A stretch of 64,000 nt of DNA from Ruminococcus sp. (GTDB lineage: Bacteria > Bacillota > Clostridia > Oscillospirales > Acutalibacteraceae), in the NCBI GenBank assembly GCA_017410265.1, contig JAFQRC010000005.1:248001-312000 (forward strand), in the 5' to 3' direction. The position numbers and the translations under genes were made by a program. Each line of letters begins with the position of its first letter. The first letter of the stretch is position 1. The notes under the pieces were generated by a model. That model was not told the origin of the DNA, searched no databases, and saw only the letters and a program-made list of their open reading frames with translations. Of this stretch, positions 5,671 to 61,128 are shown in pieces.

Positions 5671-5709
5671 AAAATATACAAGGGCACACAACAATAAAGT
5701 CGTGTGCCC
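5671..5709 (-). terminator. Intrinsic terminator overlapping the ZTP aptamer
   Basis: On the minus strand an 11-bp stem (GGGCACACGAC paired with GTTGTGTGCCC, one G-U, loop TTTATT, 5682-5709) is followed by a TTGTATATTTTTT tract. The 5' arm contains the final conserved GGGC of the aptamer, so ligand binding and terminator folding should be mutually exclusive. This is the usual design of a ligand-ON switch. Confidence 0.9.
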
Positions 5710-5785
5710 AGACGGTCGGCAAAATTGCTTTATTTCATACTCCTTTGTGGTGCTCCACTAATTCCGTCAGTTATATGAAAGCAAT
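5700..5785 (-). promoter_or_regulatory. ZTP (pfl) riboswitch controlling the purine operon
   Basis: On the minus strand the leader contains the conserved blocks of the pfl/ZTP aptamer in order. These are an AACTGACGGAA block, a small GTGG-AGCA-CCAC hairpin, an AGGAGTATGAAAT linker, and the 3' block TTTGCCGACCGTCTGGGC, whose first CGTC pairs with the GACG. ZTP riboswitches sense the AICAR derivatives ZMP/ZTP that build up when 10-formyl-tetrahydrofolate is low. The location is between the promoter and purE, with an overlapping terminator. Confidence 0.93.
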
Positions 5786-30853: not shown

Positions 30854-30867
30854 TTATTCCCACTCTT
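30854..30867. other. Putative prophage attachment site (guaA 3' end)
   Basis: On the minus strand the bases read GAGTGGGAATAA, encoding E-W-E-stop, the near-invariant C-terminus of GMP synthase, immediately followed by a terminator. Upstream the sequence changes at once to GC-rich phage DNA instead of guaA coding sequence. The 3' end of guaA is a known integration hotspot. The exact core length cannot be set without the other junction. Confidence 0.65.
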
Positions 30868-38654: not shown

Positions 38655-39125
38655 CTAATCATAGACGACCTCCGACATTTCGAGCAGGCACCCCATGAGG
38701 AATTCGTTCGTCATGGTCTGCTCTTCGAGCGCTGCTTCCAGCTGCGTGATCTTGCGCCTCATCTCTTCGGGCGTCATCACGGGTTCTGTGGGTGTTTCCT
38801 CGGTGCCTTCTTCGGGATCCGGCTCGACCGGTGTTTCCGGTTCTTCCGGTTCCACGACCTCGAAGCCGTCATCGAGCTGCTGGCGGATCGTGATGTATTC
38901 CTCTTCGGTAATCTCCACGGCTTCCACCGTCTCGTATTCGCCGGCGCCTGCAGGCACGGGGTTGAGCCAGGGAACGCGCCACACGTGCGCCTGGTCTGTT
39001 GACTGGATGAATTGAGCGTCCTCGGCATCGCAGCCGATGAGGATGCGGTTCTTCTCCTGCCATTTCAGCCAGACGAAGTTCGCGTCTATGACGGTTCCGT
39101 TGGCTATGACTTTGTAGTATTTCAT
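38655..39125 (-). CDS. Hypothetical tail-associated protein
   Basis: A 156-residue protein. The N-terminal half (MKYYKVIANGTVIDANFVWLK) looks like the domain found in small proteins next to phage tail fibres. A Glu/Pro/Thr-rich linker (about 93-117) and a helical C-terminus (MRRKITQLEAALEEQTM) follow. Its ATG overlaps the reverse transcriptase stop by four bases, so it is translated from the DGR transcript. The function is unknown. Confidence 0.6.
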   Translation of the reverse strand: MKYYKVIANGTVIDANFVWLKWQEKNRILIGCDAEDAQFIQSTDQAHVWRVPWLNPVPAGAGEYETVEAVEITEEEYITIRQQLDDGFEVVEPEEPETPVEPDPEEGTEETPTEPVMTPEEMRRKITQLEAALEEQTMTNEFLMGCLLEMSEVVYD

Positions 39126-40339
39126 GCTATCAGACCTCCTGTTCTGTATCGGTTAAATAAGCGGTTGTAAAGGATGAGCATTGCCTTCCTGGTGCGGTAG
39201 CTGTGCGCGATGGTTTTGGCATTTCCGAACCACGACTTGAAGGAGTTGAAGGCGTCGTCGCGGGTCATCAGACCGGCGTCCACCAGCTTGCGGAATTTCT
39301 TCAGCTTGCGCCGCATCCGGACGATGCCAGACTTCGCCATCCGTTTGATGATTCTGCCGGTCTCGGTCACGGTGTATCGAACCTTCAGGAACGTGAAGCC
39401 TCGCGTCGCTTTTACGATGCGGGTCTTCTTTTCGTTCAGCTTCAGTCCGAGTTTGGCGCATAGTCTCCTGATGCTTATCAGAAGCCTTCGCAGGTAGTCC
39501 TTGTCAGCGTGTAGGATATTGCCGTCGTCCATGTAGCGGATGTAGTGCCGGACGCTCGCTTTGTCTTTGATGGAGTGGTCGAGCTTGTTCGGTACCACCA
39601 GCGCCATGTCTTGCGAGATCTGGCTGCCGAGGGTTGCTCCGCAGGCTCTGTCGGCTTGCAGTTCCGCCATGAGCCTCGCCTTCTCGCTTTCGTCGGTCAG
39701 GATGGATATATCCTGCTCCTGGTACATTTTGATGAAGTACATCGTCAATGCCTGAAGCCTTTCGTCCTGACCTGCCTCTGCCAGCTTTTCTCTGCAGAGG
39801 CTGTGCCTTATGCTGTCGAAGAAGCCGGTAAAATCATAAACCAGAGCGTAGAAGTCGCTCCCGCTTTGTCTGACCTGGTCTTCGATGTGGCGCACGATTC
39901 GGCGCCGGGCGTGGCTGACGCCCTTTCCTTTGGTGCTCGCTGGGTTGTCATAAATAAGGGACGGCTGGGTTAGCGGGGTTATCGAGCTGTCGCACAATGC
40001 CCCCTGGATCACTCGGCTGTCGATCATTATGGCGTGGATGTTTCGCTTCTTGCCGCGTTCGCAGATCGTCATCTGCTTGATGGTGCGGTTGACGTCGAGC
40101 CGTCCTGCCCATAGGCTGTCTTTGGCTCTTTTCATTTTGACTGGTGCGTGGGCGATGTAGCTCTGAACGCTGCCTTTCCACTCCACATCCTTCCGGCGCC
40201 TCTGAAGCGAGCGAAGAAGCGCCTGCATAGTGATTACGTTCGTGAAGGTTCCGTGCTGCTCGATCTGCGCCTTGCGCTTCTCAGCTTTCCTTGCCTTATC
40301 ACGAGCGATTCGTGCTTGAATTCTTTCTTGATTGGTCAT
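39122..40339 (-). CDS. Reverse transcriptase of a diversity-generating retroelement
   Basis: A 405-residue reverse transcriptase. Catalytic Asp residues are in ALVYDFTGFFDSI (D169) and YIRYMDDGNIL (D271-D272). Motif 4 reads TLGSQISQ (236-243), the LGSQ-x-SQ form typical of DGR enzymes rather than the QGxxxSP of group II intron and retroviral enzymes. There is no maturase or endonuclease domain. It would copy the template-repeat RNA with errors at adenines. The start at 40339 (MTNQERIQARI) has only a weak GAAGG upstream. Template repeat, accessory protein and variable repeat all lie directly upstream. Confidence 0.95.
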   Translation of the reverse strand: MTNQERIQARIARDKARKAEKRKAQIEQHGTFTNVITMQALLRSLQRRRKDVEWKGSVQSYIAHAPVKMKRAKDSLWAGRLDVNRTIKQMTICERGKKRNIHAIMIDSRVIQGALCDSSITPLTQPSLIYDNPASTKGKGVSHARRRIVRHIEDQVRQSGSDFYALVYDFTGFFDSIRHSLCREKLAEAGQDERLQALTMYFIKMYQEQDISILTDESEKARLMAELQADRACGATLGSQISQDMALVVPNKLDHSIKDKASVRHYIRYMDDGNILHADKDYLRRLLISIRRLCAKLGLKLNEKKTRIVKATRGFTFLKVRYTVTETGRIIKRMAKSGIVRMRRKLKKFRKLVDAGLMTRDDAFNSFKSWFGNAKTIAHSYRTRKAMLILYNRLFNRYRTGGLIA

Positions 40340-40637
40340 AGTGATGAAGTGTCGCCTTCGCCCGTCCCGGCTGGTATAGTCGCCTCCGATCGGAGTTGCC
40401 TCCGGTTTTTGGTTCTCCGCCGTTCTGCCGGGTAAGCGGTACCGGGAATGAAACAAGAGGGGACGGTTGCCCTCTTGCCATGCAAGAAGCGTCCTCCCGA
40501 CCGCACCAGGGACACCGGCGTGGTGTACCGCCCTTAAATCAGAGCGGTCATGTATTTACCAGGCTGTCGCCTGGAGGGTTGCGTTCTCCTTCTCATAATT
40601 TTGATTATTTCACCCTCATACCTGGTTACTGTAATTA
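40340..40637 (-). ncRNA. Structured DGR spacer RNA between template repeat and reverse transcriptase
   Basis: About 300 bases without a credible gene. Several perfect stems are visible: CCAGGC-TGTC-GCCTGG (40559-40574), CAAGAGGG-N8-CCCTCTTG (40454-40477), and the 12-base palindrome CTCCGATCGGAG (40384-40395). In studied DGRs the segment after the template repeat is needed to prime cDNA synthesis. The same role here is inferred from position. Confidence 0.6.
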
Positions 40638-40778
40638 TGAAAATCGAGGGCAGACGCCATTGCTGTTGGACGCGTTGTTGCCGTTCGTGTTCGCGTTGCC
40701 GTTGTTGTTCACATTGCTGAAGTTCGTCGCGTTCGTGACTGCCGCGCCGCGAAGCCAGAAGTTGTTCGCTGCAAACCA
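40638..40778 (-). repeat. DGR template repeat (TR)
   Basis: About 141 bases matching the 3' end of the 2039-residue tail gene. Read on the minus strand in the target frame it holds 15 AAC/AAT codons (for example NNF, NVNNNGNANTNGNN), the adenine-rich design that gives maximal variation. Twelve of 13 differences from the variable repeat within 40645-40778 are at adenines; the other is a G. It lies between the accessory protein and the reverse transcriptase. Confidence 0.95.
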
Positions 40779-40807
40779 TTGACAGAACGCCACCCGGTAT
40801 CTCCTTT

Positions 40808-41602
40808 CTACCGGAGGTCTTTGTATCGGGCGCGGTCCGCCTTCTTCATTCCCTCCAGAAGTTTCAGCTCTTCGTCGAGGAGACCTGCCCAGTCGTCCAT
40901 CGTCTTTTCGCTGTAGTCCATGATGTTCCAAAGAGCCAGGAGCGGTCTCTGCATAGCGTTGAGGCTATCTATTGCCGCCTGAATGTAGCGCTCGCGCCGT
41001 TCTGCATCCGCCCTGGTCTCCGGTATTTTGTGGTTCGCAAGGACGACCGAGCAGAGGGCGGTGTCGATGTAGTCCGCTATTTTTCCGCTCAAGAAGTCCT
41101 TACAATGATTCGGTGCGTGACCGATTTTCTCGTAGGTATATTTGTGAAGCTCCGCCATCTTCTGAAGGAACGCGAGCCTCTGTATTTTGCGTTTGGGCAG
41201 CGCTACGATCATCGGTTGCACCTCCTCTCTCTTGGTTACTCCGTAAATCAGAGCGATCTCCCGGTTGAGCATATCCGCCCATTGCTTCGCGCTGTCCTCG
41301 TTGACGTCGAGGATATTCCAGAGCGCGAGGAGCGGCTTCTGAAGGGAAACGATCGCGCGGAGTGCCTCGGTGAAGAGGGCGCTCCTTTGCTTGCTTCCGT
41401 TCGCCGACTTCGAGTTCTGCTCGTTGGCGAGAATGACGGCGGTGTATGCTCGGTTGGTTGGGTCGTAGATTTTCGGGTATATGAATTTTCGATACCGCAT
41501 CGGCACGGAGTTGAGCCGGTCGCTGGTGTGCCGGACTATGATCCCCATTTGCCTTTCAAATTCGCTGAATGCGGTCTTTCTCTTGCTCCGTAATACCGAC
41601 AT
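40808..41602 (-). CDS. avd: Avd-like DGR accessory protein, tandem duplicated
   Basis: A 264-residue, all-helical, basic protein. Two halves resemble each other: LQKPLLALWNILDVNEDSAK (about 90) and MQRPLLALWNIMDYSEKTMD (about 220). Each half has the length of one Avd four-helix bundle (about 120 residues). In known DGRs Avd forms a positively charged pentamer that binds the reverse transcriptase and template RNA. Here two bundles seem fused. It lies between variable and template repeats, as avd does, and starts after AAAGGAGAAACC. Confidence 0.82.
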   Translation of the reverse strand: MSVLRSKRKTAFSEFERQMGIIVRHTSDRLNSVPMRYRKFIYPKIYDPTNRAYTAVILANEQNSKSANGSKQRSALFTEALRAIVSLQKPLLALWNILDVNEDSAKQWADMLNREIALIYGVTKREEVQPMIVALPKRKIQRLAFLQKMAELHKYTYEKIGHAPNHCKDFLSGKIADYIDTALCSVVLANHKIPETRADAERRERYIQAAIDSLNAMQRPLLALWNIMDYSEKTMDDWAGLLDEELKLLEGMKKADRARYKDLR

Positions 41603-41624
41603 GGTTTCTCCTTTCTTCCCGGTT

Positions 41625-41651
41625 ATCTGCCCCGACTTATGCGGGGCAGAT
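41625..41651. repeat. Hairpin/cruciform just downstream of the variable repeat
   Basis: A perfect 10-bp stem (ATCTGCCCCG with CGGGGCAGAT, 7-base loop) begins about 24 bases past the stop codon of the variable protein. Similar cruciforms after the variable repeat support target recognition in phage DGRs. There is no T tract, so it is not a normal terminator. Confidence 0.75.
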
Positions 41652-41674
41652 GTTCAGGATTGCGGCTGCGCCTT

Positions 41675-44600
41675 TTAGATTGAGAAGCGAGGGCAGACGC
41701 CAGCGCTGTTGGACGCGTTGTAGCCGTGCGTGTTCGCGCTGCCGCCGTTGCTCACATAGCTGAAGTGCGTCGCGTATGTGACTGCCGCGCCGCGAAGCCA
41801 GAAGTAGTTCGCTGCAAACCACTCGCCGTTGCGGCGGATGTAGCCTCTGCTGGATTCTGAAGTGTTGATCCAGAGGTCGCCTTCCTTGACGTTGTTCGCC
41901 GCGTTGGTTGTCGGGTCGGTTCCGGATGTGAATATCGAGTATCCGTCCGGAAGCGCCACGCCTCTGAATTTGATTCTGGATGTGTTGTTCGTGAAGAATG
42001 TCACCCAGTTGCCTTCGTAGACCCACGGCTCTGCTGTGGTGCTGTAAACCTCCGCGTAGGACGGTACCCAGAGGTACGCGTCTGCAGCTTCGATTTCGTG
42101 GTTGGTGCCGTCGACGTAGCAGTTGTAGTTGATTTTGCATTGCTTCATCATCTGGCGCCATACTTCAGGGAATGCCTTATAAAGGCGATTCTGCAGCCAT
42201 GCGAAGAGAGGCATATTGTCGAAACCTCCGGCGTTGCTGTTGGTCGTGTTCATCTGCTTGGTGCGCTCCAGGAGGCTCGCGCAGATGAAGTCCACGCTGG
42301 TCGGCTGTACGCTGTTGGCTGTCAGCTTGTAATTGCCGAAGCCGCCCACCTCGAAGAGGTAGGTCTCACGCGGCCAGCTCACAATGTTGCGGCAGTCCGT
42401 GTCGCCGAGGTCTCCGTGCCAGATGCGGCAGGAGTGGATCGTGCCCTTTGCGTAGTCGCCAATGTAGCCGGCGTCCGTCTTGGTGGCGCCGAGTACGAGC
42501 GTGCAGTCGCTCTGGGTGTCGATGGTCTTTGTCAGTTCTTTGAATTCCGGAGCGTCGGTGTACGCCTTCGAGGAGTAAACCTTGACGTTTCTGCTTCCGG
42601 CTTCGTGTCTGATGACCATAATCTCGCGGTAGGTTGTCGCGCCGCTGTTGTAGGTATTGGTGCTCCATTGTACGGAAGGTCCGCCTGAATACTTGAGCTT
42701 GAAGCCCATGTATCCGTCTTCCTGCATACAGCAGATCATTGTCTGGTCTGCGGTCGTGTCGCTGAAGGTTACGTCTGCGACTACCGTCCAGGCTTCGCCG
42801 ATGCCGTTCTTCAGGAGCTGGATCCCGGTGTCGACGTAGTTGGTACCGTCGAGCTTCAGCTCGTTCGCTACGTCTGTGAAGGGGATGTTGCTGTACTCCG
42901 GTGCGAAGCCGAAGGTTACCGGCACTCTGTCCTTCAGGGAGAAGTAGTCGAAGCTCTTTCCGCTCTTCGATACGGCGTAAATCTGCGCCGGTGTCATGCT
43001 GCCGATGTCGGTTCCTGCGTTCGGAAGTTCGCCGCGCTGCCATACTGCCCAGACGTCGAGGTCGCCGGTGATGAAGCCGGTGCTCTTATCCCATCCCTCG
43101 AAGAGGTAATAAACGAATTGTCCCTCTTCGTCGGTTCTTTCGGGCGTCTCGCCTGCGTAGATGGCTTCAGAGCCGTAATCTACGACCTGGGTGTCCATAA
43201 CGATGCCGACCTGGGAAATCCAGCGCACGGTGTACTGGCGAGGCGTCTCGCTGTAGGTTGCGGTGAGCGTTCTCGGTGCGATAATTGCAGAGAGGTCGCT
43301 GTCCCATCCGTCGTATGTGTAAACGGTGGAGACGCTGCTCTCGCGCGTCGGTGTCGGGATGGTTCCTGCAGTTACCGGGTCCGCGACGTCGTTTCCTCGG
43401 TCGACGTACTCGCTGTGGAGCACGGTGCCGTCCCAGTTGACGAATGTCACCAGGTACTGCTGCACGAGGGTCTCGTAGCTGATCGCAAGGTCTGACCACG
43501 CGGTTCTGTATGCGGTGAGTTTTGACTGCCTCATGATCGGCACGTAAACGGCGCCGGTCAATACGGACTGCTCCAGGTTGTGGTCTGCTTCGTCCAGACC
43601 CTTAATCGCAACGAGGCGGTCGAGGATCGTGGTATCGGGAAGCGTCCAGTTGATTCCGAGGATACGGATTCTGGTCAGTCCGGTGGCTCTCTCGATGAAG
43701 TCGAGGGTGTCAATGGTCGGGCAGTCTTCGATTCTTGCTGTGCGGAGCGCGTCGTAGGATGCGAATGTGAGGCTCTGGAGGTTCTTCAGGGCGATCGCGG
43801 AGACGCTGCTGACTGCGGGTACTTCTGCCGTCTGGATCTTGCCTCCGGGCGCAAACGATACGCCGGTGATTCCGGATCCGTTCGCCTTCAAAATGAGAAG
43901 GGCGTCGCAGCCGGTAAGGTCGAGCGTCTGTACCAGATTCGGCAGGTTCTGAATGTCGAGGGTTTCCAGGAGCACATTATTGCCCAGACCGATGGTCGTG
44001 GCGTTGGTGTTGCTGTATCCCTCGGCGCCGTCGCCAATCTTCAGGTGGCGAAGTTTTACGGCGCTGGCGATGTTGAAGTAGCCGATGTAAAGGGGCGCCA
44101 GGTCGCCGACGTCTGAAACCATCGAAGCCGTGTAGATGTAGATTTCGGTGTCGTTCAGGGTGTCGATCGGGCACTTCAATTCGTAGGACTGTCCGCGCTT
44201 CGCTCTCACACTTACGATTCCAGAGCCGGACTGCAGCGTGATGTACATATCGGCGTATGGCGTGATTGTTATCAGGTCGCTTGGCGCTACGCCGCCCCAG
44301 TTGGTCGGGGTGTATGCGCGGAAGGTGATTGTGTCGGAGGTCGCCTTTGAGCCTCTGTATTTGGAGGCGATGTATTTCTCCTGGTAAATCTCAAACTGGC
44401 GCCTCTGGTCTGCTTTGGTGCCGTAGAGCATTTCGAGGTATGCTTCGGTTCCGCTGTTGGTGTACGGGCGGATGTATTTCTTCCACATATCCTCAATGAC
44501 CAGCGCTTCCGGTCTTGGCGACTGGTGCGCTGTGAATTTCGCGAGAATTCTCTCGGCGTTCCATGCGCCCTTTGATTCCAGCGTCAAGAAGAGGCTGCGG

Positions 44601-47600
44601 AGGTCGTCGTAGAAGAAGTCCCTCACGTTGCACCAGAGCACGCTGGAGGACGCGTTGAAGACGTCCTTTGTGCCGATGGTGTCGGTGTCTTCCATACCGT
44701 AGGAAAGCGTCAAGCCGCCCTCGTTGTCGTTGCCGTCGGCGGTGTCGTTGTCGTAGTCCTTCGTGAAGTCCCAATGGATACCGTCGTCGGTGGAGACGAA
44801 GACGTTCTTTGCGCGGTTATCAACCATCGCGTGACGCTCTGTGAAGAGGTAATGGTAAAGGGCGGAGTCCTTGATGAAGTAGTCCTCGAATTCTGCCACG
44901 AATTTCGCGCCACGGTATTCCGCCGTGTCGTGCGTGTAGGTCTTTCCGCCGTAGGTTTTGCTTTCGGGAAGTGCCGCGTCAGTCGCTGCGGTTCTGTCGG
45001 TTGAAACCACCCAGGAGAGGACTCTCTGCCATGCAGCTTTGTGCTCTGTGGTCGGGTTCTTCGGGTATCTGAATTCAAACGATCCTTCTCCGTCCCATGT
45101 CTCGGTGGAGAGGTCGTCGCTCTTCCATAGGCAGGGGTTGTTGGTGTTGTTGCTGATTTCAACACATGACTGCAGCGCGTTGTCCTGCTGTCCGAATACG
45201 GCGAAGTTCTTCTTTGAGTTGTTCATATCGCCGCATCCGTAGAGAACGGTCGCTCCTGCCGGTACTGTGATGGATCCCATCTGTGCCGCCTCGGTGCCGG
45301 TGTTGTGGAAGAATACGACGCAGGGGTGTCCCTCGACGGTGTCTCTGACCTTCGGGTTCGCCGCTCTTGCTGGGTTGATGTACGGCTGGAATTCGTTGTA
45401 TTCGTCCGCCATGACGACGTTGTTTGCGTTCTCCGAAGAGGCGACATTGAGCTTGATGTTGAAATAATTCACGCCGATGCTCTTGTCGGTCATGGAGTAT
45501 TTGTCTCCGGTGGTTCCATCTCCGAAAACGAAGGCGGCCGTGGTTACCTCGCCTGCGTCGTCCTCGATTGCCTCAAATTCGAGGTCGAGGTTCAGCGCCG
45601 CTTCTCCGTACTGTGCGGAGGAGGTACCTTGAGCCTTCATCGTAACGTTGGCGCCGGTGAATTTGTGCTTTACGCCTCCGGCTTTCATGACGTGGTCGAC
45701 CGTGCAGGTGACTTCGTCTGTCTTTGCCGTTGTCATCTTCGGGGCGTGTACCGTAATCACGCGGAGGTTCGGACTTGCGTCGATGAGCTTTTGGATATCG
45801 ATATCTCCGTTGGAGTCGTAGATGTTGTTGCGGTTGTATCGCGCCAGCATCTCTTCGGCGTCCGGAGCGTCCGCCATCCAGTTTTCGTGGATTTCGAGGC
45901 GGGTCAGGTCGTTCTCGTAAGCCTTCACGCGGTAAATATGGACGTCGCAGTCGTTGGATCCGATTCGGAGCAGCTGCGGATTATCCTGGGTGAAGTTGTC
46001 GTTGTCGGCGTAAATTGCCACCTTCGAGGGAATGCCTTCAAGCCAGATCATCATTACGCGGTCGCCGCCATCGGGTTCGATGTTGATGTCCATTTCGATG
46101 ATGCTGTCCTCGCAGTACGGTACGTCCATTTCGGTGAGCTGCGATCTTACGGTCGCTCTCTGCGCCTGGAGTTTGACGCCGATGTTGTCTGCGAAGCACG
46201 AGAGAATTTGTGCGTCGTAGTTTCGGCAGTTGGTTGCCTTGAAAATGAATTTCAGCTCCTTGCCGGTTCTCATGGCGTCGTCTGCAAAGAGGGACTTGTC
46301 GGCTTCGACGTAGGTGCCGCATTTTACACAGAAGTATGTGTTGCCGTCGGCGTCGGTTTTGAAGCCGCCGTTCGACCAGTCGAAATTGTCGGAGAAGGTC
46401 AGCGGGTGGTTCGTGCCGGCGCCGTCCTTGTATCCGAATTCCTCGCGGTCGGTATCGTTGTTGGTGTGCCCTGCAGGGTTAAGGTCAAATACGAGACCGG
46501 TGGTCACCGGTTCCACGCTGATTCCGATGTCCTCGACTTCGAGGGTTATCGTCTTGACGACGTCTCCGCAGGTGATGGTGAGGTTCTTTGTGCCCGGTGT
46601 GTCGGGTTTGTAGCTCCAGGTCTGGCGCGTTCTGTCGACGGTCAGGTTGGATACGACTTCGCCGTCCACCTTGAGGGTGATGTCAGCTGTCAGGCTCGCC
46701 GGGTTGTAGACGATGTATGGGATTGAGACGGTTGTGTACTGCTTCGCTTTCCCTGCGTAGCTGCAGGCAATGATCGGCGTGGAGTTTCCTTCCTCCGCCC
46801 AGATTACGTCGTATTCCAGAGTGTTGCTGGTTACGGCGACGCCGTCCACCGTGGCTGTGGCGTAAACCTTCAGCCTATGGGCGCCATGGCTCTGTCCGGG
46901 GATGCTCTGTGTCTGCTGTCTGTTGGAAGCGGTCACGGTGGCTGTTGCTACCTCTGTGCCGTCAATCTCAAAGTGGATCAGCTTCTCGATGTTGTTGCCG
47001 ATCGGCGTGTATCTGAAGAGGACGTCTCCGTTGTAGATTGCCGCGTCGTCAAAGCTCGCGCTCAAAGAGAGAGCGATGGCGCTGATTGTCCACGTCTTCG
47101 TGCCGTAGTTGTCGTCTTCGTCCGTCACCTTGACCTTGACCTTGTTGGTGCCTTCGGTGAGGTACGGTCCTACATTGATGGTGTGGCTTCCTTGCTCGAT
47201 GTTCTTCTGAATGACCGTCGAGCCGTTGATGGAAAGCTCAAGCGTACCGCTGCTGTTGGTGAATTCGCCGCCGCTGTCGTAATCGTAAAAACTGAAGATG
47301 ATATTCACATCCTCGCCATGTGCGACGGTAATTGCTGACGCTCCGGTGAGGTTCTCCAGTTTTACAACGGTGCCGGAGGAGCTTCCGCCGCCTCCGCCTC
47401 CGCCAATGAAGCAAGGATCCACGACGTCCTCGCCTTCCATCTGAATGTGAAGGTATCCGGTTTCCTGGTTGTAGGTGACGCTGTCAAAGGCGAGACCGCC
47501 GCTCTCGATGGCGATATCTGCCGACGTGTCGTCCCAGAACGTGATCCTGATGCCGGTGTCGATCGGGTCGACGCTCTTGACCAGGTTCGAGTACATTTCC

Positions 47601-47794
47601 TCGATGCCAGCTTCGGTCTGCATTCCTTCGTGGATCCCGGCGTCTTTCAATGCCTGGATGAATGCTGCAAGCGTGGCTCTGCGAAGGCTTTCCTTCGTTT
47701 TGCCGCCGACCGTTTCCGGCTGGGTGATGAGTACGCTGGCGCTATTTCTGACGTTTTCCGTACTCTGTTTTTCGGTTATCTTGGTTGTTGCCAT
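41675..47794 (-). CDS. DGR-diversified tail receptor-binding protein (2039 residues)
   Basis: A giant tail protein directly after the tail fibre gene. Rough layout: N-terminal segment and Gly-rich turn (residues 1-135), Ig-like beta domains (140-430), a concanavalin/LamG-like domain (440-650), and a region like CotH proteins (715-1130, with AQGTSSAQYGEAALNLDLEF). Then come a leucine-rich stretch (1280-1400), two InlB-type B repeats (1455-1580), a second LamG-like domain (1645-1820) and a C-terminal C-type-lectin/DUF6273-like domain (1840-2039) with LWVPSYAEVY and FWLRGAAV. The last 48 residues are encoded by the variable repeat, where template Asn codons have become Tyr, His, Ser, Gly or Ala. 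It should bind host surface ligands. GGAGGTAAAGT precedes the ATG. Confidence 0.88.
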   Translation of the reverse strand: MATTKITEKQSTENVRNSASVLITQPETVGGKTKESLRRATLAAFIQALKDAGIHEGMQTEAGIEEMYSNLVKSVDPIDTGIRITFWDDTSADIAIESGGLAFDSVTYNQETGYLHIQMEGEDVVDPCFIGGGGGGGSSSGTVVKLENLTGASAITVAHGEDVNIIFSFYDYDSGGEFTNSSGTLELSINGSTVIQKNIEQGSHTINVGPYLTEGTNKVKVKVTDEDDNYGTKTWTISAIALSLSASFDDAAIYNGDVLFRYTPIGNNIEKLIHFEIDGTEVATATVTASNRQQTQSIPGQSHGAHRLKVYATATVDGVAVTSNTLEYDVIWAEEGNSTPIIACSYAGKAKQYTTVSIPYIVYNPASLTADITLKVDGEVVSNLTVDRTRQTWSYKPDTPGTKNLTITCGDVVKTITLEVEDIGISVEPVTTGLVFDLNPAGHTNNDTDREEFGYKDGAGTNHPLTFSDNFDWSNGGFKTDADGNTYFCVKCGTYVEADKSLFADDAMRTGKELKFIFKATNCRNYDAQILSCFADNIGVKLQAQRATVRSQLTEMDVPYCEDSIIEMDINIEPDGGDRVMMIWLEGIPSKVAIYADNDNFTQDNPQLLRIGSNDCDVHIYRVKAYENDLTRLEIHENWMADAPDAEEMLARYNRNNIYDSNGDIDIQKLIDASPNLRVITVHAPKMTTAKTDEVTCTVDHVMKAGGVKHKFTGANVTMKAQGTSSAQYGEAALNLDLEFEAIEDDAGEVTTAAFVFGDGTTGDKYSMTDKSIGVNYFNIKLNVASSENANNVVMADEYNEFQPYINPARAANPKVRDTVEGHPCVVFFHNTGTEAAQMGSITVPAGATVLYGCGDMNNSKKNFAVFGQQDNALQSCVEISNNTNNPCLWKSDDLSTETWDGEGSFEFRYPKNPTTEHKAAWQRVLSWVVSTDRTAATDAALPESKTYGGKTYTHDTAEYRGAKFVAEFEDYFIKDSALYHYLFTERHAMVDNRAKNVFVSTDDGIHWDFTKDYDNDTADGNDNEGGLTLSYGMEDTDTIGTKDVFNASSSVLWCNVRDFFYDDLRSLFLTLESKGAWNAERILAKFTAHQSPRPEALVIEDMWKKYIRPYTNSGTEAYLEMLYGTKADQRRQFEIYQEKYIASKYRGSKATSDTITFRAYTPTNWGGVAPSDLITITPYADMYITLQSGSGIVSVRAKRGQSYELKCPIDTLNDTEIYIYTASMVSDVGDLAPLYIGYFNIASAVKLRHLKIGDGAEGYSNTNATTIGLGNNVLLETLDIQNLPNLVQTLDLTGCDALLILKANGSGITGVSFAPGGKIQTAEVPAVSSVSAIALKNLQSLTFASYDALRTARIEDCPTIDTLDFIERATGLTRIRILGINWTLPDTTILDRLVAIKGLDEADHNLEQSVLTGAVYVPIMRQSKLTAYRTAWSDLAISYETLVQQYLVTFVNWDGTVLHSEYVDRGNDVADPVTAGTIPTPTRESSVSTVYTYDGWDSDLSAIIAPRTLTATYSETPRQYTVRWISQVGIVMDTQVVDYGSEAIYAGETPERTDEEGQFVYYLFEGWDKSTGFITGDLDVWAVWQRGELPNAGTDIGSMTPAQIYAVSKSGKSFDYFSLKDRVPVTFGFAPEYSNIPFTDVANELKLDGTNYVDTGIQLLKNGIGEAWTVVADVTFSDTTADQTMICCMQEDGYMGFKLKYSGGPSVQWSTNTYNSGATTYREIMVIRHEAGSRNVKVYSSKAYTDAPEFKELTKTIDTQSDCTLVLGATKTDAGYIGDYAKGTIHSCRIWHGDLGDTDCRNIVSWPRETYLFEVGGFGNYKLTANSVQPTSVDFICASLLERTKQMNTTNSNAGGFDNMPLFAWLQNRLYKAFPEVWRQMMKQCKINYNCYVDGTNHEIEAADAYLWVPSYAEVYSTTAEPWVYEGNWVTFFTNNTSRIKFRGVALPDGYSIFTSGTDPTTNAANNVKEGDLWINTSESSRGYIRRNGEWFAANYFWLRGAAVTYATHFSYVSNGGSANTHGYNASNSAGVCPRFSI
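41681..41821 (-). repeat. DGR variable repeat (VR)
   Basis: About 141 bases aligned without gaps to the template repeat at a constant offset of 1043 bases. It encodes the C-terminus of the tail protein. The 3' end (CCTCGCTTCTCA against CCTCGATTTTCA in the template) differs at two bases, as expected for IMH versus IMH-star sequences that set the direction of transfer. The match stops at the codon for the Trp of EWFAAN. Confidence 0.95.
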
Positions 47795-47805: not shown

Positions 47806-50106
47806 TTATCTGAATGCGATGTAGCGGTAAGTTTCGCCGCTCTTGTTGGTCGCGATCTTGTTTGAGGAGCTGTAGTTCACGTAGAAGCCGTTCGTGGTGA
47901 TGAGCAGCGCCGTGTGGGTGTTGCTCCACGTGGTTTCATGCGCAGACGATGTGCAGCTCCTGGTTCTCAAGCCGTAGGTGCCCACGGCAAGACCGCCGCA
48001 GACGCCATCGACGTCGTCGCCGACCATGCCTCTGCCGTTGCAAAGGAAGACCGCCGAAGGCGTAAAGTCAAGCGAGATCAGGCGCTTGGTGGATCCGTTT
48101 CCGCTGTAAACACCGAAAACCGGAGCGCCGAAGTAAGAGCCGAGCTGTTCTGCCAGGGCACTCATGCTGGTGCAGCCGGTACCGCCTCTGGAAGCTCCAA
48201 GAACGCCCTCGGTGAGGTCGTTTGTGGAGTGCTGGTGTGCTTCTTCTGCCGCCTTGATCTTCTTCGGGGTTATGCTGTGCGGATTTTCTGCCTTCAGGTG
48301 AAGGATGAGGTTGTTGATCGCTCTCTTCACTTTGCCCATGAAGGTCGCCATTTTTTCTCCCGGTGTGGGTTCCTCAAGCGTTGTAGCGATGGTGTAAGTG
48401 ATCGCCATGTCTGCCGGTGCCACGTTCTCGACGTTGCCGAGACCGATCTGCTCTGCGTTTACACCGTGAGGATTGGAGAAGTCGCGCTTGTGCTCCTCCA
48501 GGCTTTTCTTCGTGGCGTATACAGAGCCTTCGCCGATCGTAGCGGTTACTTCCTCGGCATCGCCTACCATTACGAGAATGGTCAGGGAGACCTCGATTGT
48601 CTTGCCGCAGTCGTTTGCCGGGATGAATTCGTCAAGTTCTCCAGCGTGGCAGTATGCGTAGAGCAGCTCGTTTCCGTCTGCGTCCTCTGCGAAGACGCCG
48701 GTCTCTGCCCAGTTAAAGCCTGCGACCACTTCGCTGTTGTTGAAGGATCCGGCAAGGCTGACATAGTTCGAGCCTCTCTCGATGCTCTCGATCGGAATTG
48801 TGACCATCGGGTTCACCAGGTCTACGAGCGCGTCCTGCGTTGCCGGTTGAGAGACGCTGCAGGTGATGGTGCTGTAGTTCTGATTCCATTGGGTTCCGGT
48901 GTATTCGTAGAGCACGTCTTCCGCTGTGCTGTACCACCAGTCCCCGGCGTTTGGTTCGAGGGGTGCTACCGGGTCGTATGTGAACGGTTTTTCCTCGTTT
49001 TGCATCCAGCCGGTGGAGAATTCCTTCAGCTCTGCAGCTTCGGTGTCGTACCAGAGGTCGCCATCGTAGGCTCTTGCCGGCGCGGTCCCGCTGTAGGTGA
49101 AGTTGTCCTCGGTGTCGTTCAGCCAGAGCATTCCGTAAACCTTCAGGATGGATGCTGCGGTGTCGAACCACCACTCGCCGGCTTCAGGGGTTGTCGGCGC
49201 TGCGCTTCCGTATGTGAAGACGGTCGCGTTGTCCGGAACCCAGCCGGTACCATAAACGTGGAGCGATGTGTCGTACCACCAGTCGCCCTGGTTCGGTACT
49301 TCCGGAGCGACGTTTCCGTATGTGAACGGGTGATCGTCGTCCTGCCATCCGAGCGCATATTCCTTCAGGCTGTCCGTTGTGGTGTCGTACCACCAGTCGC
49401 CGAGCGCCGGTGCCTCCGGTGCTGTCCCTGCGTAGGTGAATGCCTGGGCGTCTGCCGCCCACTCGGTGCCGTTGTGTTTCATCAGCACGTTGTTGGTGGA
49501 GTCGTACCAGTAGTCGCCTTCTGCAGCTGCTTCGGGTGCCGTGTCTGCGATGGTGAGGTTTACGCCCTCTTTTGCGCCCCACAGAGCCGCGCAGACCTTG
49601 AGCTGGGTGTTTGCTTGGTCGTACCAGTAATCGCCCGCTGACGGCGATTCTGGGGCGTCCTGGGCGCAAGAAATGACGACGTCTGCCTCTTCGTTCCATT
49701 TGTTTCCGAATGCGTAGAGGATTTCGTTCGCCGTGTCATACCAGCGGTCGCCGTTTTCTGCTTCAGGAGGCGGTGTGGTTGAGCACGTGATGTTTGCCGA
49801 TTCGATTGCCCAGCCTTCTCCGAAGTAGTAGAGGGTGTTGTTCGTGGTGTTGTACCAGAGGTCATTTTCGGACGGCTCCTCCGGGGCGGTTTCGCCGACC
49901 GTGATGGTTCTGCCGCTGGTGCCCCACGTCTCCTTGTACTCGTAGAGGATCTCGTTCTCTGTGTCGTACCAGAAGTCACCGGCAGACGGACTGTCCGGCG
50001 CGGTTCCGTTGCCGATTTTTATTTTGGTGAAGTTCAGGGGACTGCCGGAAAGCGCGGAAATAAGCAGACCCCTACCTGCGTCTGTGAGTTGAGGTATTAA
50101 GCTCAT
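47806..50106 (-). CDS. Tail fibre with an inserted repeat array
   Basis: A 766-residue fibre. Residues 1-34 (LTDAGRGLLISALSGSPLNF then TKIKIGNG) and about 425-560 (DLVNPMVTIPIESI, NWAETGVFAEDADGNELLYA) together make the usual N-terminal phage fibre domain. Between them lie about ten repeats of 36-40 residues. The remainder has an HKRDFSNPHGVNAEQIGLGN collar motif, a helical region and a beta-rich tip (VFLCNGRGMVGDD...RYIAFR). It attaches to the baseplate beside the DGR target protein. AAGGAGGCAAAC precedes the ATG; the start overlaps the previous stop by four bases. Confidence 0.85.
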   Translation of the reverse strand: MSLIPQLTDAGRGLLISALSGSPLNFTKIKIGNGTAPDSPSAGDFWYDTENEILYEYKETWGTSGRTITVGETAPEEPSENDLWYNTTNNTLYYFGEGWAIESANITCSTTPPPEAENGDRWYDTANEILYAFGNKWNEEADVVISCAQDAPESPSAGDYWYDQANTQLKVCAALWGAKEGVNLTIADTAPEAAAEGDYWYDSTNNVLMKHNGTEWAADAQAFTYAGTAPEAPALGDWWYDTTTDSLKEYALGWQDDDHPFTYGNVAPEVPNQGDWWYDTSLHVYGTGWVPDNATVFTYGSAAPTTPEAGEWWFDTAASILKVYGMLWLNDTEDNFTYSGTAPARAYDGDLWYDTEAAELKEFSTGWMQNEEKPFTYDPVAPLEPNAGDWWYSTAEDVLYEYTGTQWNQNYSTITCSVSQPATQDALVDLVNPMVTIPIESIERGSNYVSLAGSFNNSEVVAGFNWAETGVFAEDADGNELLYAYCHAGELDEFIPANDCGKTIEVSLTILVMVGDAEEVTATIGEGSVYATKKSLEEHKRDFSNPHGVNAEQIGLGNVENVAPADMAITYTIATTLEEPTPGEKMATFMGKVKRAINNLILHLKAENPHSITPKKIKAAEEAHQHSTNDLTEGVLGASRGGTGCTSMSALAEQLGSYFGAPVFGVYSGNGSTKRLISLDFTPSAVFLCNGRGMVGDDVDGVCGGLAVGTYGLRTRSCTSSAHETTWSNTHTALLITTNGFYVNYSSSNKIATNKSGETYRYIAFR
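48860..50005 (-). repeat. Array of about ten WYDT repeats in the tail fibre
   Basis: Each unit is 36-40 residues with the pattern TAPExPxxGDxWYDTxxxxL-(x)n-W. Examples begin TAPDSPSAGDFWYDTENEIL, TAPEAPALGDWWYDTTTDSL and TAPARAYDGDLWYDTEAAEL. The copies are diverged, so this is an old domain array. A related GDLWINT unit precedes the variable repeat in the neighbouring protein. Confidence 0.85.
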
Positions 50107-50774
50107 GTTTGCCTCCTTTCGTCGTCAATAAAGACGTTCATATTTTCATCCGCCAGCGTGTTGCCGAGTTCGTCAACAAGCCATACGACGTCTGAAACGC
50201 CTCTATCGTCGTACTCCGTGATCGCCACCGTCTTCATTTCGTGGACGGCGGCCGCGAAGTACATGGAGAGCGTGCCCTTGCGAGGCAGCTCGATGGAATA
50301 TGCGAGGTGGGAAGGCTTCACGGTGTTGATCTTCTTGATGACCGCGATGTAGTCCACGGTCGAGGTTCCTTCTTCGATGGAAACCTTGAAGGTATAGTTG
50401 CCGTTGTCTTCGTCCACCGTCACCGGTCTTCCGGTGAGCGCTTCCAGAATATCCTCCAGGGTGGCTGGGGTGAGCGGTTGCTTGCGTCCGCGCTTCGCAA
50501 TGACCGCCGCGCGTCTGGTTTCGAGGTCTTTGGTTTCGTCAACCTCAAGACCGTAGCGCTGTTCCCAGTATCTGATGCCCCAGGTGCATTGTTCGAGGAA
50601 GCATTGCTGGCGGAGGCTCTCTACGAGCTGCCGTGCCTGATCCATTTCGAGACCCATGACCTCGTAGAGCCACTTGCCGACGTATGACTTCTCATAAATC
50701 GGCGAGACGCGGCTCATCATTCGTTTTGCGCTTTCGCTTTCCGGGAAGCGTTCGATATCAAAGTCTTTCTTCAT
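50103..50774 (-). CDS. YmfQ/XkdU-like baseplate protein (DUF2313)
   Basis: A 223-residue protein with the helical N-terminus MMSRVSPIYEKSYVGKWLYE and GIRYWEQRYGLEVDETK, characteristic of the XkdU/Mu gp48 family of baseplate wedge-tip proteins. It directly follows the baseplate J gene, as in PBSX, and precedes the fibre with an ATGA overlap. It probably connects baseplate to fibre. Confidence 0.88.
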   Translation of the reverse strand: MKKDFDIERFPESESAKRMMSRVSPIYEKSYVGKWLYEVMGLEMDQARQLVESLRQQCFLEQCTWGIRYWEQRYGLEVDETKDLETRRAAVIAKRGRKQPLTPATLEDILEALTGRPVTVDEDNGNYTFKVSIEEGTSTVDYIAVIKKINTVKPSHLAYSIELPRKGTLSMYFAAAVHEMKTVAITEYDDRGVSDVVWLVDELGNTLADENMNVFIDDERRQT

Positions 50775-50777
50775 GGA

Positions 50778-51926
50778 TTACACCTCCACGCTGCTGGTTA
50801 CGGTTGCGAATTGCCCGATGAGCTTCGGGTATTCATCCAGCGCGAGAGAGATGTTGTCGGTTCCTCCGTTGAGCGTCAGGTTGGCGTAGTCTGCTACGCC
50901 GTCGGTGCCGATAATAATCGAGCCGATTCGGTTTCGCTTGATGACTCCTTCCTTTTGCGCTGTCTCGAAGTAGTCCTTCAGGCTCTCTCCGATGTTTGCC
51001 ACGATGGCGGTGTAGTTTTCGCCGGTTGCGATGGTGAGATCGCAGGCGACGTTGACGTCCACCGTCGTCGGTGCGGTAATGGTTACCGTTGCTCCGATCG
51101 GCGCCAGTCTGGCGCGTCGGTTTTGCGGCGCCACGATGTGGTTTTCCACGTCGGTGATGATTTTCGGGTTTGCCGGCGTTCCGTTGGCGTCCATGACGAC
51201 GACCTTCACGGTGCCGGGTCCGTTCCATTCGGGTATGACGATAACGTCGCCCACGCCGTTGATCTCCTTCGCCCAGCGGATGTAGTCGTTGTCGCATCCT
51301 ACGAACGAGGCGTCTGATGCTTCGCAGATCTCGCCGATTCGGCTGCGGAGCGATTCGTCGTCCTCTTCAGCTGCGCCGCCGCTGGTGCTTTCCAGGTTGG
51401 TGATCTTCTCGATGCCGGAAATGGAAGGCGACACCATGATGATGATGGTGTCTGCTGCCACGTTTCCGATGGTTCCGGTTTCGCTTGCCAGGATGGGGAC
51501 GTCTGCCACGCCGTCGAGGCTTATGGTCGCCTCTTCTGTGGTGTAGAAGGTTATCGCAGCTGTGTCTCCGGATGCCGGGACTGCAAAAAGGAAGCCGTTC
51601 GGGATAACCGTTCCGGGTGAGCCGGTGATCTGCAGGGTTCCTGAAGCGTGGCTCGCTTCCTTTCTGGCGATTCCTACCGCCCTTGCGTGGTAGTCGAGGT
51701 AGATTCCGTAGGAGAACATATAATGCATGATTTTGGTGGTCTCCATCATGTGGAATTCGAGCAGCTCTGCTTTTTCCAGCGCTGTCGGCTTCGTGAAGTC
51801 CCACGGAAATCCGCCCTCGGTGTCGTCGATGTCGTCAGGGAGGTTATGCATCATTCGCGCGTGGATCGTCTCCGCGTCCTGACCTTCCAGCCAGGCAGGC
51901 GGGACGAATGTGTTGTTCTTTGCCAT
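50778..51926 (-). CDS. Baseplate J-like protein (XkdT)
   Basis: A 382-residue baseplate wedge protein. Typical features are the N-terminus AWLEGQDAETIHARMMHNLP, the TEGGFPWDFTKPTALEKAEL region, SESGTIGNVAADTI-type strands and the ETYSTEV-like region SSEEDDESLRSRIGE written here as AEEDDESLRSRI. It forms the sheath-proximal baseplate ring in contractile tails. GGAGGAAGC precedes the ATG. Confidence 0.92.
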   Translation of the reverse strand: MAKNNTFVPPAWLEGQDAETIHARMMHNLPDDIDDTEGGFPWDFTKPTALEKAELLEFHMMETTKIMHYMFSYGIYLDYHARAVGIARKEASHASGTLQITGSPGTVIPNGFLFAVPASGDTAAITFYTTEEATISLDGVADVPILASETGTIGNVAADTIIIMVSPSISGIEKITNLESTSGGAAEEDDESLRSRIGEICEASDASFVGCDNDYIRWAKEINGVGDVIVIPEWNGPGTVKVVVMDANGTPANPKIITDVENHIVAPQNRRARLAPIGATVTITAPTTVDVNVACDLTIATGENYTAIVANIGESLKDYFETAQKEGVIKRNRIGSIIIGTDGVADYANLTLNGGTDNISLALDEYPKLIGQFATVTSSVEV

Positions 51927-59709: not shown

Positions 59710-61128
59710 TTAATTTGCGGAGAAGCGGAAGCGGTAGGTCAGGTAGATCTTCTCGATGCTGTCGATGTCGTCTACCGCGATGACGAACCATGCGCTGTCG
59801 CCCTTCGCAGGATTTGCGCTGTCCTCGGTCATGATAGAGCCGGGAGCGAGCTTCTTTTCGGCGATCATGGTGTCGATTACCGACTGACCAGCTGCTACGA
59901 TAGCGGCTCTGCCGTCGGTGTCGTTGTTGATCTTACCGATGAGGGCGTCGGTGGTGTCGCCGATGCGCTGCATAAGCTCGAAGCGAGTCTTTACGCGGCG
60001 GATCTTCTTCCAGCCTTCGTCCTCGTTGCCAGAAGGAGTGATGAGGGTGTTGATGCCCTGCTCGATCCATACCTGGCCGCTACTGTTCTTTGTCAGAACG
60101 ATGCAGCCGGAGAGGAGCGCCTTCTCGATCTGCGTGTTGGTGAGGGTTTCCGCAAGGTCTGCGTAGCCGCTCACGACGTAGTGAGTTACGCTCTGGTTGG
60201 AAGGAACGGCCGCGATAATGCCGCCGATTCTGGCAGCGTTGATGTAGCCTTCCTTCTTGTTGCCGCTGGTGTCTTCGCCGCCGTTCAACACGTAGGAGAT
60301 CTTCGCGTCGTTGAAAGCTGCAGCGTGCTGCATTCTCACGTCGAGAGTGTTCTCGGTGCTGGACTTTTCGGAGAGGACAGTCGTAGGATACGCGCCTGCT
60401 GCGAAGGTTCTCTTGATGAAAGAGTGAACGACCGCGTGGACTGCGACGTCCTCGGTGTCTACGCAGAGCACGTTGTAGGTGTGAGGCTCCAGCGCGTTGA
60501 GGGCGGTGGAGTATGCCTCGGTGTTTACGGTCGGGTTAGTGCCGGCTGTGAACGCGGACTGCGTTACAGAGGCAAGAGAGCCGGATCCGTCGGCTACCTT
60601 CTGTGCTGTGAAGTTTTCGGAAGCTGCAAAAGCCGCAACAAGAGCAGCTGCTTCGCCGCCTTCGGCACCCTTTGCGAATTCGATCTTCTCAAATTCGGTA
60701 GTGCCGTCGTAGATGATGCATTCTCTCTTTGCGTCGTTTGTCAAGCTGTCTCTGATGCTGACGGTGAACGCGCGGTCGCCGACGTATTTAGCCGTGATCG
60801 TCACGGCGTCAGCTGCCTCGGCTGCGTTGTCCTTCAGCGTGATGGAGCCGTAGGTACCACCGGTACCGCAGCGGACGAAGTATCCCTTCGAGTTTCCTTC
60901 CTCGAACATTGCGCTGATGAGGTCTTCGGTCTGTCCCTTGCCGAAGACTGTCTTCACGTCTGTGCTCGGATCGAAAACTACCGCCTTGTTGAGCGGTCCC
61001 CAGTTGGCGCGAATTACGCCAGCTACGATTCCGTTGGTCGCACCTGCGGTGGGAATGCCGCCAGCATTTTCAAAGCGATGGTACTCGCCAGGGCGGACTT
61101 TGGTTTCTCCAATAGTGAAAGTTCCCAT
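59710..61128 (-). CDS. Tail sheath protein (XkdK-like)
   Basis: A 472-residue contractile tail sheath. The N-terminus (KVRPGEYHRFENAG, GIVAGVIRANWGPLNKAVVF) and C-terminal domain (KIRRVKTRFELMQRIGDTTD, GDSAWFVIAVDDIDSIEKIY) are typical of PBSX-type sheaths. This gene shows that the phage is a myophage. The order sheath, tube, chaperone, tape measure is conserved. Confidence 0.95.
   Translation of the reverse strand: MGTFTIGETKVRPGEYHRFENAGGIPTAGATNGIVAGVIRANWGPLNKAVVFDPSTDVKTVFGKGQTEDLISAMFEEGNSKGYFVRCGTGGTYGSITLKDNAAEAADAVTITAKYVGDRAFTVSIRDSLTNDAKRECIIYDGTTEFEKIEFAKGAEGGEAAALVAAFAASENFTAQKVADGSGSLASVTQSAFTAGTNPTVNTEAYSTALNALEPHTYNVLCVDTEDVAVHAVVHSFIKRTFAAGAYPTTVLSEKSSTENTLDVRMQHAAAFNDAKISYVLNGGEDTSGNKKEGYINAARIGGIIAAVPSNQSVTHYVVSGYADLAETLTNTQIEKALLSGCIVLTKNSSGQVWIEQGINTLITPSGNEDEGWKKIRRVKTRFELMQRIGDTTDALIGKINNDTDGRAAIVAAGQSVIDTMIAEKKLAPGSIMTEDSANPAKGDSAWFVIAVDDIDSIEKIYLTYRFRFSAN

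Follow-up and report, generated by a model that had tools for sequence, protein, structure and literature searches.

A diversity-generating retroelement with a tandem Avd-like accessory protein in a contractile-tail prophage of Ruminococcus sp.

We analyzed a 64,000-nucleotide stretch of Ruminococcus sp. DNA (GenBank assembly GCA_017410265.1, contig JAFQRC010000005.1, positions 248,001 to 312,000), referred to below as the window, which carries a diversity-generating retroelement (DGR) among phage genes. On the minus strand, a target gene (47794-41675) that ends in a variable repeat (VR) is followed by an accessory gene (41602-40808), a template repeat (TR; 40778-40638), a spacer and a reverse transcriptase (RT) gene (40342-39122). 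The first-pass annotation had described VR, accessory gene, TR and RT as a single leftward unit forming a complete DGR in a contractile-tail prophage. The order of reading frames and repeats bears out the former, and the latter is supported in that all of the parts and the tail genes are found. Three parts go beyond that first reading: a target-site hairpin, a structured spacer RNA (RT-2) and the two-domain make-up of the accessory protein. The features of the element are as follows.

41675..47794, minus strand: DGR target gene, a 2039-aa tail-region protein that ends in the VR
41681..41821, minus strand: VR (core of the first-pass annotation, 41688-41821)
41681..41692, minus strand: 3' end of the VR, resembling an initiation of mutagenic homing (IMH) site; carries A-to-C and T-to-C changes relative to the end of the template
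41625..41651, minus strand: target-site hairpin, 10-bp stem and loop CATAAGT, 29 nt past the VR
40808..41602, minus strand: accessory gene between VR and TR, tandem Avd (two fused Avd-like domains, 264 aa)
41219..41602, minus strand: N-terminal Avd-like domain, residues 1-128, less conserved
40811..41218, minus strand: C-terminal Avd-like domain, residues 129-264, the better conserved of the two; agrees with the Avd profile and the bAvd fold
40638..40778, minus strand: TR, the copy adjoining the RT gene, with 39 adenines
40395..40643, minus strand: RT-2 RNA (RF03077), structured TR-RT spacer of the template RNA; 69.6 bits against a gathering score of 40
40477..40494, minus strand: most conserved RT-2 core, GGACGCTTCTTGCATGGC
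39122..40342, minus strand: DGR RT, 406 aa, with LGSQISQ and YMDD (PF00078, E 8e-18)

Repeats, target and reverse transcriptase

The first-pass annotation had counted 13 substitutions between the repeats, 12 of them at template adenines, over a 134-bp core. An exact recount of the ungapped alignment (40645-40778 against 41688-41821, minus strand) agrees: 12 of the 13 lie at adenines of the 40645-40778 copy, which make up 37 of its 134 bases (hypergeometric p = 4.6e-7), and the substitutions are thus not spread evenly over the bases. In the frame of the target, the TR contains 13 AAC and 2 AAT codons. Over the whole 141-bp repeat (40638-40778 and 41681-41821), there are 15 substitutions, 13 at A, and the two additional ones (A to C and T to C) sit in the 3' end, to which the name IMH is given by analogy with Bordetella phage BPP-1. 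The A to C is found at the same place in all ten relatives compared (L003-L008, L010 and L013-L015, among which L006 and L013 repeat L005 and L010), and because it is shared by all of them, it looks like a fixed IMH/IMH* difference rather than a product of mutagenesis. When the rest of the genome is searched for further VRs of this TR, only the TR and VR themselves match strongly, the remainder being three short stretches at E 0.07 or worse.

An alignment of the repeats in related genomes, which had been proposed as a check, gives the same picture. In a close relative, L003 (viral contig IMGVR 3300029705_002086), the RT is 99% identical over the 319 residues covered and the TR differs from that of the window at 0 of 141 positions, whereas the VRs differ at 22 of 141, with 21 of these at template adenines (p = 2e-13) and the 22nd being the window's own G-to-A change. 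Upstream of the VR, the target genes of the two differ by 0 to 7 bases per 100, compared with 18 in the central 100 bases of the VR. A third version of the VR is found in L014, a prophage in the metagenome-assembled genome (MAG) RGIG7414 from water buffalo colon (RT 95%). Across ten loci of the clade to which these sequences belong, 191 of 202 TR/VR substitutions are on template adenines, which account for 369 of 1392 template bases; without the last 12 bases, the count is 181/183, with changes to G (84), T (57) and C (40). Outside this count are L006 and L013, whose repeats are identical to those of L005 and L010; L009, on the same contig as L003; L010 and L015, with gapped alignments (13/14 and 22/23 at adenines); L017 (17/20 at adenines); and L011 and L012, where the available stretch contains no VR/TR pair. 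As a close relative shares the template and has a differently altered VR, recent activity of such cassettes is likely.

Within the clade, at least one cassette is damaged: the RT of L015 (L015:8002-8747) has the usual start, lacks about residues 14-152 and has a frame change. This locus, whose VR nevertheless shows 22/23 changes at adenines, is one reason to consider that the DGR of the window is no longer active in the lysogen and that its VR is the frozen record of an old event. The modest share of core adenines that differ (12/37), the division of the prophage over two contigs and the fact that the evidence comes from assembled sequence point the same way. However, the window has intact frames for RT, accessory protein and target, its VR differs from that of L003 at 21 adenines under an identical TR, and the hairpin and spacer fold have been kept under covariation, so we regard loss of activity as improbable.

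The protein predicted to be diversified ends in a DUF6273 domain (residues 1847-2039; PF19789, E 4.7e-7) whose last part is the VR, and PF19789 is matched by 12/12 aligned target members. The last 47 or so codons of the target are likely those that are diversified. From the position of the gene after a tail-fibre-like gene, the DUF6273 tip would bind the host surface.

The LGSQISQ and YMDD boxes claimed for the RT are both present in its 406-aa frame, which a mechanical reading would extend to an earlier TTG at 40456; [LIV]GxxxSQ and YxDD boxes mark DGR RTs. Its best match among solved structures is 8ub7 (E 2e-14), which we take to be the BPP-1 DGR RT, with group II RTs behind at E 3e-6. Below their cut-offs are the NCBIfam models for group II RTs (TIGR04416, 67.9 of 300 bits), for retrons (St85, the only retron model listed, 28.7 of 235 bits) and for Drt proteins (Drt3a, the best of four listed, 43.4 of 200 bits). 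The RT thus scores as neither a retron nor a group II intron enzyme, the two groupings that would have spoken for another identity. Our 24-row RT tree consists of other loci that carry a TR and a VR, with a single defence-type RT as the outgroup; with no group II or retron rows, it is no test of that grouping.

Several observations concern RTs more broadly. The catalytic box reads FMDD in place of YMDD in the tandem-Avd relatives L004, L005, L010 and L033. Directly after the RT gene of the window lies a 156-aa gene (38655-39125), and a gene with a similar start also follows the RT of L017. We considered a second DGR in the genome and rejected it: the other RT (L002, G000:C11:6052-6651) is UG17-like, with no RT-n RNA in its locus. 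This defence-type RT adjoins an integrase-like frame and a tRNA.

A two-domain accessory protein

The accessory protein departs from the usual arrangement of one domain of ~130 aa per chain. Because it is 264 aa long and consists of two homologous halves, we refer to it as a tandem Avd, a variant of the known protein. Its match to the Avd profile (PHROG 3206) has an E-value of 7e-4 over residues 139-264, while 49/52 aligned family members match this profile at E up to 0.01, the best at 2.8e-11. The predicted structure is a four-helix bundle like that of bAvd, a fold match that rests on a second structure aligner because Foldseek gives no match in the PDB at E 0.001 or better (2gsc, 0.19; 4dwl, 1.9). 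Single-domain accessory proteins from the same slot in other DGRs match both half-profiles of the tandem Avd. The homologue search admitted proteins of 0.55 to 1.75 times the query length, so that single-domain Avds below 145 aa could not appear and the uniform length of the homologues is partly by design.

On the 24-row RT tree, the 14/14 tandem-Avd loci placed form one clade (100/99), and by this topology, the fusion has one origin. Outside this clade, the Avd profile confirms single accessory proteins in L019, L025, L041, L044, L045 and L047; L018 and L046 have accessory-sized frames with no match to the profile, and no accessory frame is seen in L026. In named phage genomes, tblastn finds no relative of the accessory protein at E 1e-3, yet the profile finds the single Avds of L044, L045 and L047 there. 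In our literature search, judged by titles, we found no description of a tandem or fused Avd for DGRs; the likeliest sources lie outside that search, and such a description may be in print. The term 'avd' is absent from the main text of Roux 2021 (PMC8144416).

An alternative is that the protein is not Avd and belongs to the helical proteins of the 23S-rRNA-insert (S23/IVP) superfamily, with some other function. Avd itself is a structural relative of this superfamily. Nevertheless, the proportion of the family that matches the Avd profile, the best E-value among them, the placement of the gene beside the TR (the avd slot) in those clade loci that were examined and the agreement of single-domain accessory proteins in that slot with both half-profiles all favor Avd, and we consider the S23/IVP identity very unlikely.

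Within the accessory gene, codons 45-132 (41200-41470 of the window) form a peak of divergence relative to L003 and L014, with no adenine bias. We rejected DGR action as its source. Because the changes are of all kinds, with synonymous codons outnumbering the others, it is likelier that the N-terminal Avd domain has recombined with a diverged allele.

Spacer RNA and target-site hairpin

The spacer between TR and RT is a full-length member of RF03077 (model positions 1-222 of 222). The gathering score is reached in 12 of 14 tandem-Avd loci (in L007 over part of the model), with L008 (38.1) and L017 (37.7) just below. Over 13 spacers, the fold comprises 64 pairs, 32 of them with compensatory change, and 94.8% of cells pair, compared with 83.1% when shuffled and 39 to 45% when slid; 0/500 shuffles are as high on any measure, for a fold derived from the same alignment in which it was counted. 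Full-length matches start a few bases from the end of the TR and extend to ~70 bases or less from where the RT begins. Those in L005, L032 and L033 run a few bases into the RT, and those in L007 and L017 are partial. A scan of the other RT loci L018, L019, L025, L026, L046 and L047 gives no RT-2 match, and a search of 398 genomes from the phylum, filtered at the cost of weak matches, yields 2: the window and G326, the latter below the cut-off and also located between an AAC-rich stretch and an RT.

We also took a census of exact matches to the 19-base RT-2 motif [CA]GGACGCTKCTTGCATGGC in IMG/VR as DNA, a sample of at least 133 stretches, at least 111 of them distinct; all census counts are among the matches listed. 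An RT was called by tblastn with five RTs from the present analysis (E 1e-5, within 1.5 kb downstream), and a repeat pair was called A-biased if at least 70% of substitutions are at adenines of the downstream copy. A DGR-type RT lies downstream in 102/111 loci and in 97/98 of those with at least 600 bases there, the single exception with room being L091. An A-biased repeat pair is found in 76/111 loci and in 63/68 of those with at least 2 kb upstream. An Avd-like frame is present in 87/111 loci, with both halves in 8 (seven whole; L051 cut) and one domain in 79. All eight two-half loci have the RT of the window as best reference, as does a ninth, L099 (the contig of L005), which is cut before the accessory gene.

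Rfam assigns the BPP-1 spacer, in which TTCTTGCATGGC occurs, to Phage_DGR (RF03022, 104.7 bits). From the RT and repeat neighbors in the census and this core shared with BPP-1, RT-2, akin to the RNA of BPP-1, is most likely the spacer segment in the template RNAs of a large group of phage DGRs. In the accessible part of PMC11701678, RF03077 is listed only as a family with an improved structure, and Rfam holds it as a small RNA of unstated role, in contrast to the present assignment to a DGR template RNA. Our literature search found no paper linking a diversity-generating retroelement to RT-2 RNA; the likeliest sources lie outside it, and the link may be in print. One could instead take RT-2 for an independent small RNA, or for an element like a retron, that happens to adjoin an RT, as Rfam classes it under gene/sRNA and names it after its RT neighbor and not as a DGR RNA. 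Yet its full-length matches fill the interval between TR and RT, the loci chosen by motif have the RT and repeat neighbors counted above, and the DGR RNA of BPP-1 has the same TTCTTGCATGGC core in the same interval, which leaves this a remote prospect.

Some of these loci are of interest in themselves. In L026 (G030:C27), a DGR with 26/29 TR/VR changes at template adenines and no accessory frame seen between VR and TR, the Rfam family RT-17 (44.1 bits) lies between TR and RT, the usual place of RT-2, and may be another RT-n family serving as a DGR spacer. The RT-2 DGRs L074, L077, L079, L082, L083, L117, L152 and L162 have more than 900 bases between VR and TR, yet a single or no Avd-like domain is seen. 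In L128, an Avd-like domain occupies residues 392-517 of a 525-residue frame, possibly a target-Avd fusion or a frame joined by a missing stop.

For the hairpin past the VR in BPP-1, both stem structure and loop sequence matter, and the consensus loop is GRNA (PMC3240598). The window has both an IMH-like end and a downstream hairpin, with a loop unlike the published GRNA: as DNA, a C-G pair closes an ATAA tetraloop with a bulged T (z -3.5). The stem covaries in 12 clade members, with 5/11 pairs changed on both sides and 98.3% of cells paired, and 0/500 shuffles reach the observed values on four of five measures (2/500 on the fifth). The loop in these 12 members is C-R-T-N-A-G-T, which also occurs on imperfect stems in L032 and L036. 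On a perfect stem of at least 7, this loop is found in tandem-Avd loci only (scan of the loci gathered, listed duplicates left out). L017, the deepest tandem-Avd member, has the loop CTTGC on a 7-bp stem, and because it combines a tandem Avd with another loop, the fusion and the loop change are, by these sequences, not one step. We rejected the hairpin as a terminator: it is absent from the terminator-scan list, and no T run follows it.

In the census, hairpins are perfect in 65 of 76 loci with a VR, while 11 have none that is perfect. The loops fall into GNNA (20), CYYGY-like (27), CRTNAGT (4) and other (14) classes, which were drawn up after the loops were seen and leave 14 of 65 hairpins in no class. 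When placed on an RT tree (55 census rows, 3 references), the three named classes require 4 changes, compared with 19.1 when shuffled (0/200 as low), with 11 unclassed rows left out of the count and some long branches unsure. CRTNAGT forms one clade, while GNNA and CYYGY take 3 to 4 changes apiece. Loop class thus descends with RT lineage; because relatedness alone would cluster the labels, the clustering speaks for descent and not for recognition.

Prophage setting and interpretation

The DGR prophage is inserted at the 3' end of guaA, and its surroundings in the window include the following.

30854..30865, minus strand: prophage end, a 12-base copy of the guaA 3' end (GAGTGGGAATAA)
47809..50106, minus strand: tail-fibre-like gene upstream of the target
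50106..51926, minus strand: baseplate genes, Mu Gp48-like (50106-50774) and Baseplate J (50781-51926)
60001..61128, minus strand: part of a tail sheath gene (read from L042:1-1128; PF04984, E 4e-17)

Because Phage_sheath_1, Baseplate_J and Mu Gp48 domains are detected, the tail is of the contractile type. The guaA gene itself lies on a different contig, G000:C5, where a phage integrase (PF00589, E 7e-22) in high-GC DNA comes after it. From the common 12-base guaA end and the GC content, the end of the window's contig (C4) and that of C5 probably belong to one prophage. The GC content climbs from ~0.39 to 0.56 at 30 to 32 kb of the window, and the contig continues in phage genes (portal, terminase) up to its end. 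The prophage part (31000-64000; GC 0.56, host 0.39) also has a strong AT skew and is possibly a recent arrival from a different base composition. The host part contains a ZTP riboswitch (5699-5784). A promoter scan finds 3 promoters, with 3.5 expected by chance.

When compared to BPP-1 (NC_005357; mtd-avd-TR-brt), the window has the same order of target, avd, TR and RT on one strand, a TR-RT spacer RNA with the shared TTCTTGCATGGC core and a GC-rich hairpin just past the VR (the hairpin rule being that of PMC3240598). It differs in its accessory protein, which is 264 aa long versus a one-domain Avd of 128 aa in BPP-1 (bbp7, 3021-3407), in the Rfam family of its spacer RNA (RT-2 versus Phage_DGR) and in its loop, C-RTNA-G with a bulged T versus the published 4-nt GRNA. 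The best-ranked named phage RT (35.9%) is that of Roseburia phage Shimadzu (LR596903, L044), whose DGR also has baseplate genes and an RT-2 RNA between TR and RT (144.9 bits), whereas its Avd is single (136 aa) and its hairpin loop is CTCGT. Similarly, the DGR of the human faecal phage MT837512 (L045) shares an RT-2 RNA between TR and RT (170.1 bits) and an A-specific repeat pair, and differs in having a single Avd-like protein of 142 aa and a GTCA tetraloop. L014 and L003 share the cassette of the window (RT 95% and 99%, tandem Avd 92% and 92%, the same hairpin loop and RT-2 RNA) and differ from it in their VR sequences. The DGR itself is thus of a known kind, and the variant lies in its machinery: the tandem Avd, the RT-2 spacer and the CRTNAGT hairpin, which our literature search, not reaching the likeliest sources, did not find described.

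Taken together, we read the locus as a contractile-tail prophage with a complete DGR, by which the tip of a tail protein is likely diversified through mutagenic retrohoming with the help of a fused two-domain Avd, and put the probability of this reading at about 93%. It is carried by the A-specific difference between TR and VR, the intact RT and tandem-Avd frames, the covarying RT-2 spacer and hairpin stem and the identical TR with a differently mutated VR in a near-identical phage. By analogy with BPP-1 (PMC12875486 and PMC3240598), the tandem Avd and RT would bind the TR transcript at its RT-2 fold, cDNA would be primed from the RT-2 spacer, template adenines would be read as any base during cDNA synthesis, and the cDNA would replace the VR at its hairpin-marked end. 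The mutated domain would be a receptor-binding tail tip and the outcome a switch of receptor.

Several points weigh against this reading. The sole non-A change in the core (G to A at 40734/41777) adjoins a mutated A. The accessory protein's own match to the Avd profile is weak (E 7e-4), it has no Pfam family above the cut-off, a sequence search of the PDB returns no Avd chain and nothing meaningful, and the Foldseek search adds no support. For the target domain, the predicted structure is too poor for use (predicted local distance difference test score, pLDDT, 43), and a sequence search of solved structures yields no meaningful relative, so that a lectin-type fold and a receptor role are conjectural. 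The window's contig stops inside the prophage, which is split over two contigs; the case for activity is built on assembled sequences; and the damaged RT of L015 belongs here as well. A simple duplication whose two copies diverged through biased mutation, for which nothing speaks beyond the repeat itself, has a negligible chance of being the right explanation, as identical TRs with unlike VRs and 181/183 substitutions at one base of one copy, in 10 loci and to all three other bases, already contradict it.

BPP-1 Avd forms a closed pentameric ring of five Avd domains that binds RT and RNA. As a chain with two domains does not allow a closed five-domain ring to be built from whole chains, the fusion predicts an even number of Avd domains per particle. 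A more far-reaching and doubtful proposal is that this DGR lineage works with a fused-chain Avd assembly in place of the five-fold ring of BPP-1, which freed one domain to diverge, and that a new target address followed the fusion, with the VR hairpin loop read by the RT-Avd-RNA particle as a lineage code (GNNA, CYYGY, CRTNAGT). The CTTGC loop of L017 lowers the case for a loop code linked to the fusion. If true, such a code would prevent one DGR from writing into the target of another.

The fused Avd directly raises the question of stoichiometry in the RT-Avd-RNA particle and is natural material for asking which Avd domain contacts RT, RNA or target. The assignment of RT-2 gives an orphan RNA family a likely role, and its 19-base motif provides a DNA handle for finding phage DGRs without a protein search (97/98 loci with room, among the matches listed). 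Finally, the link between loop class and RT lineage suggests what may set the target of one DGR apart from that of another.

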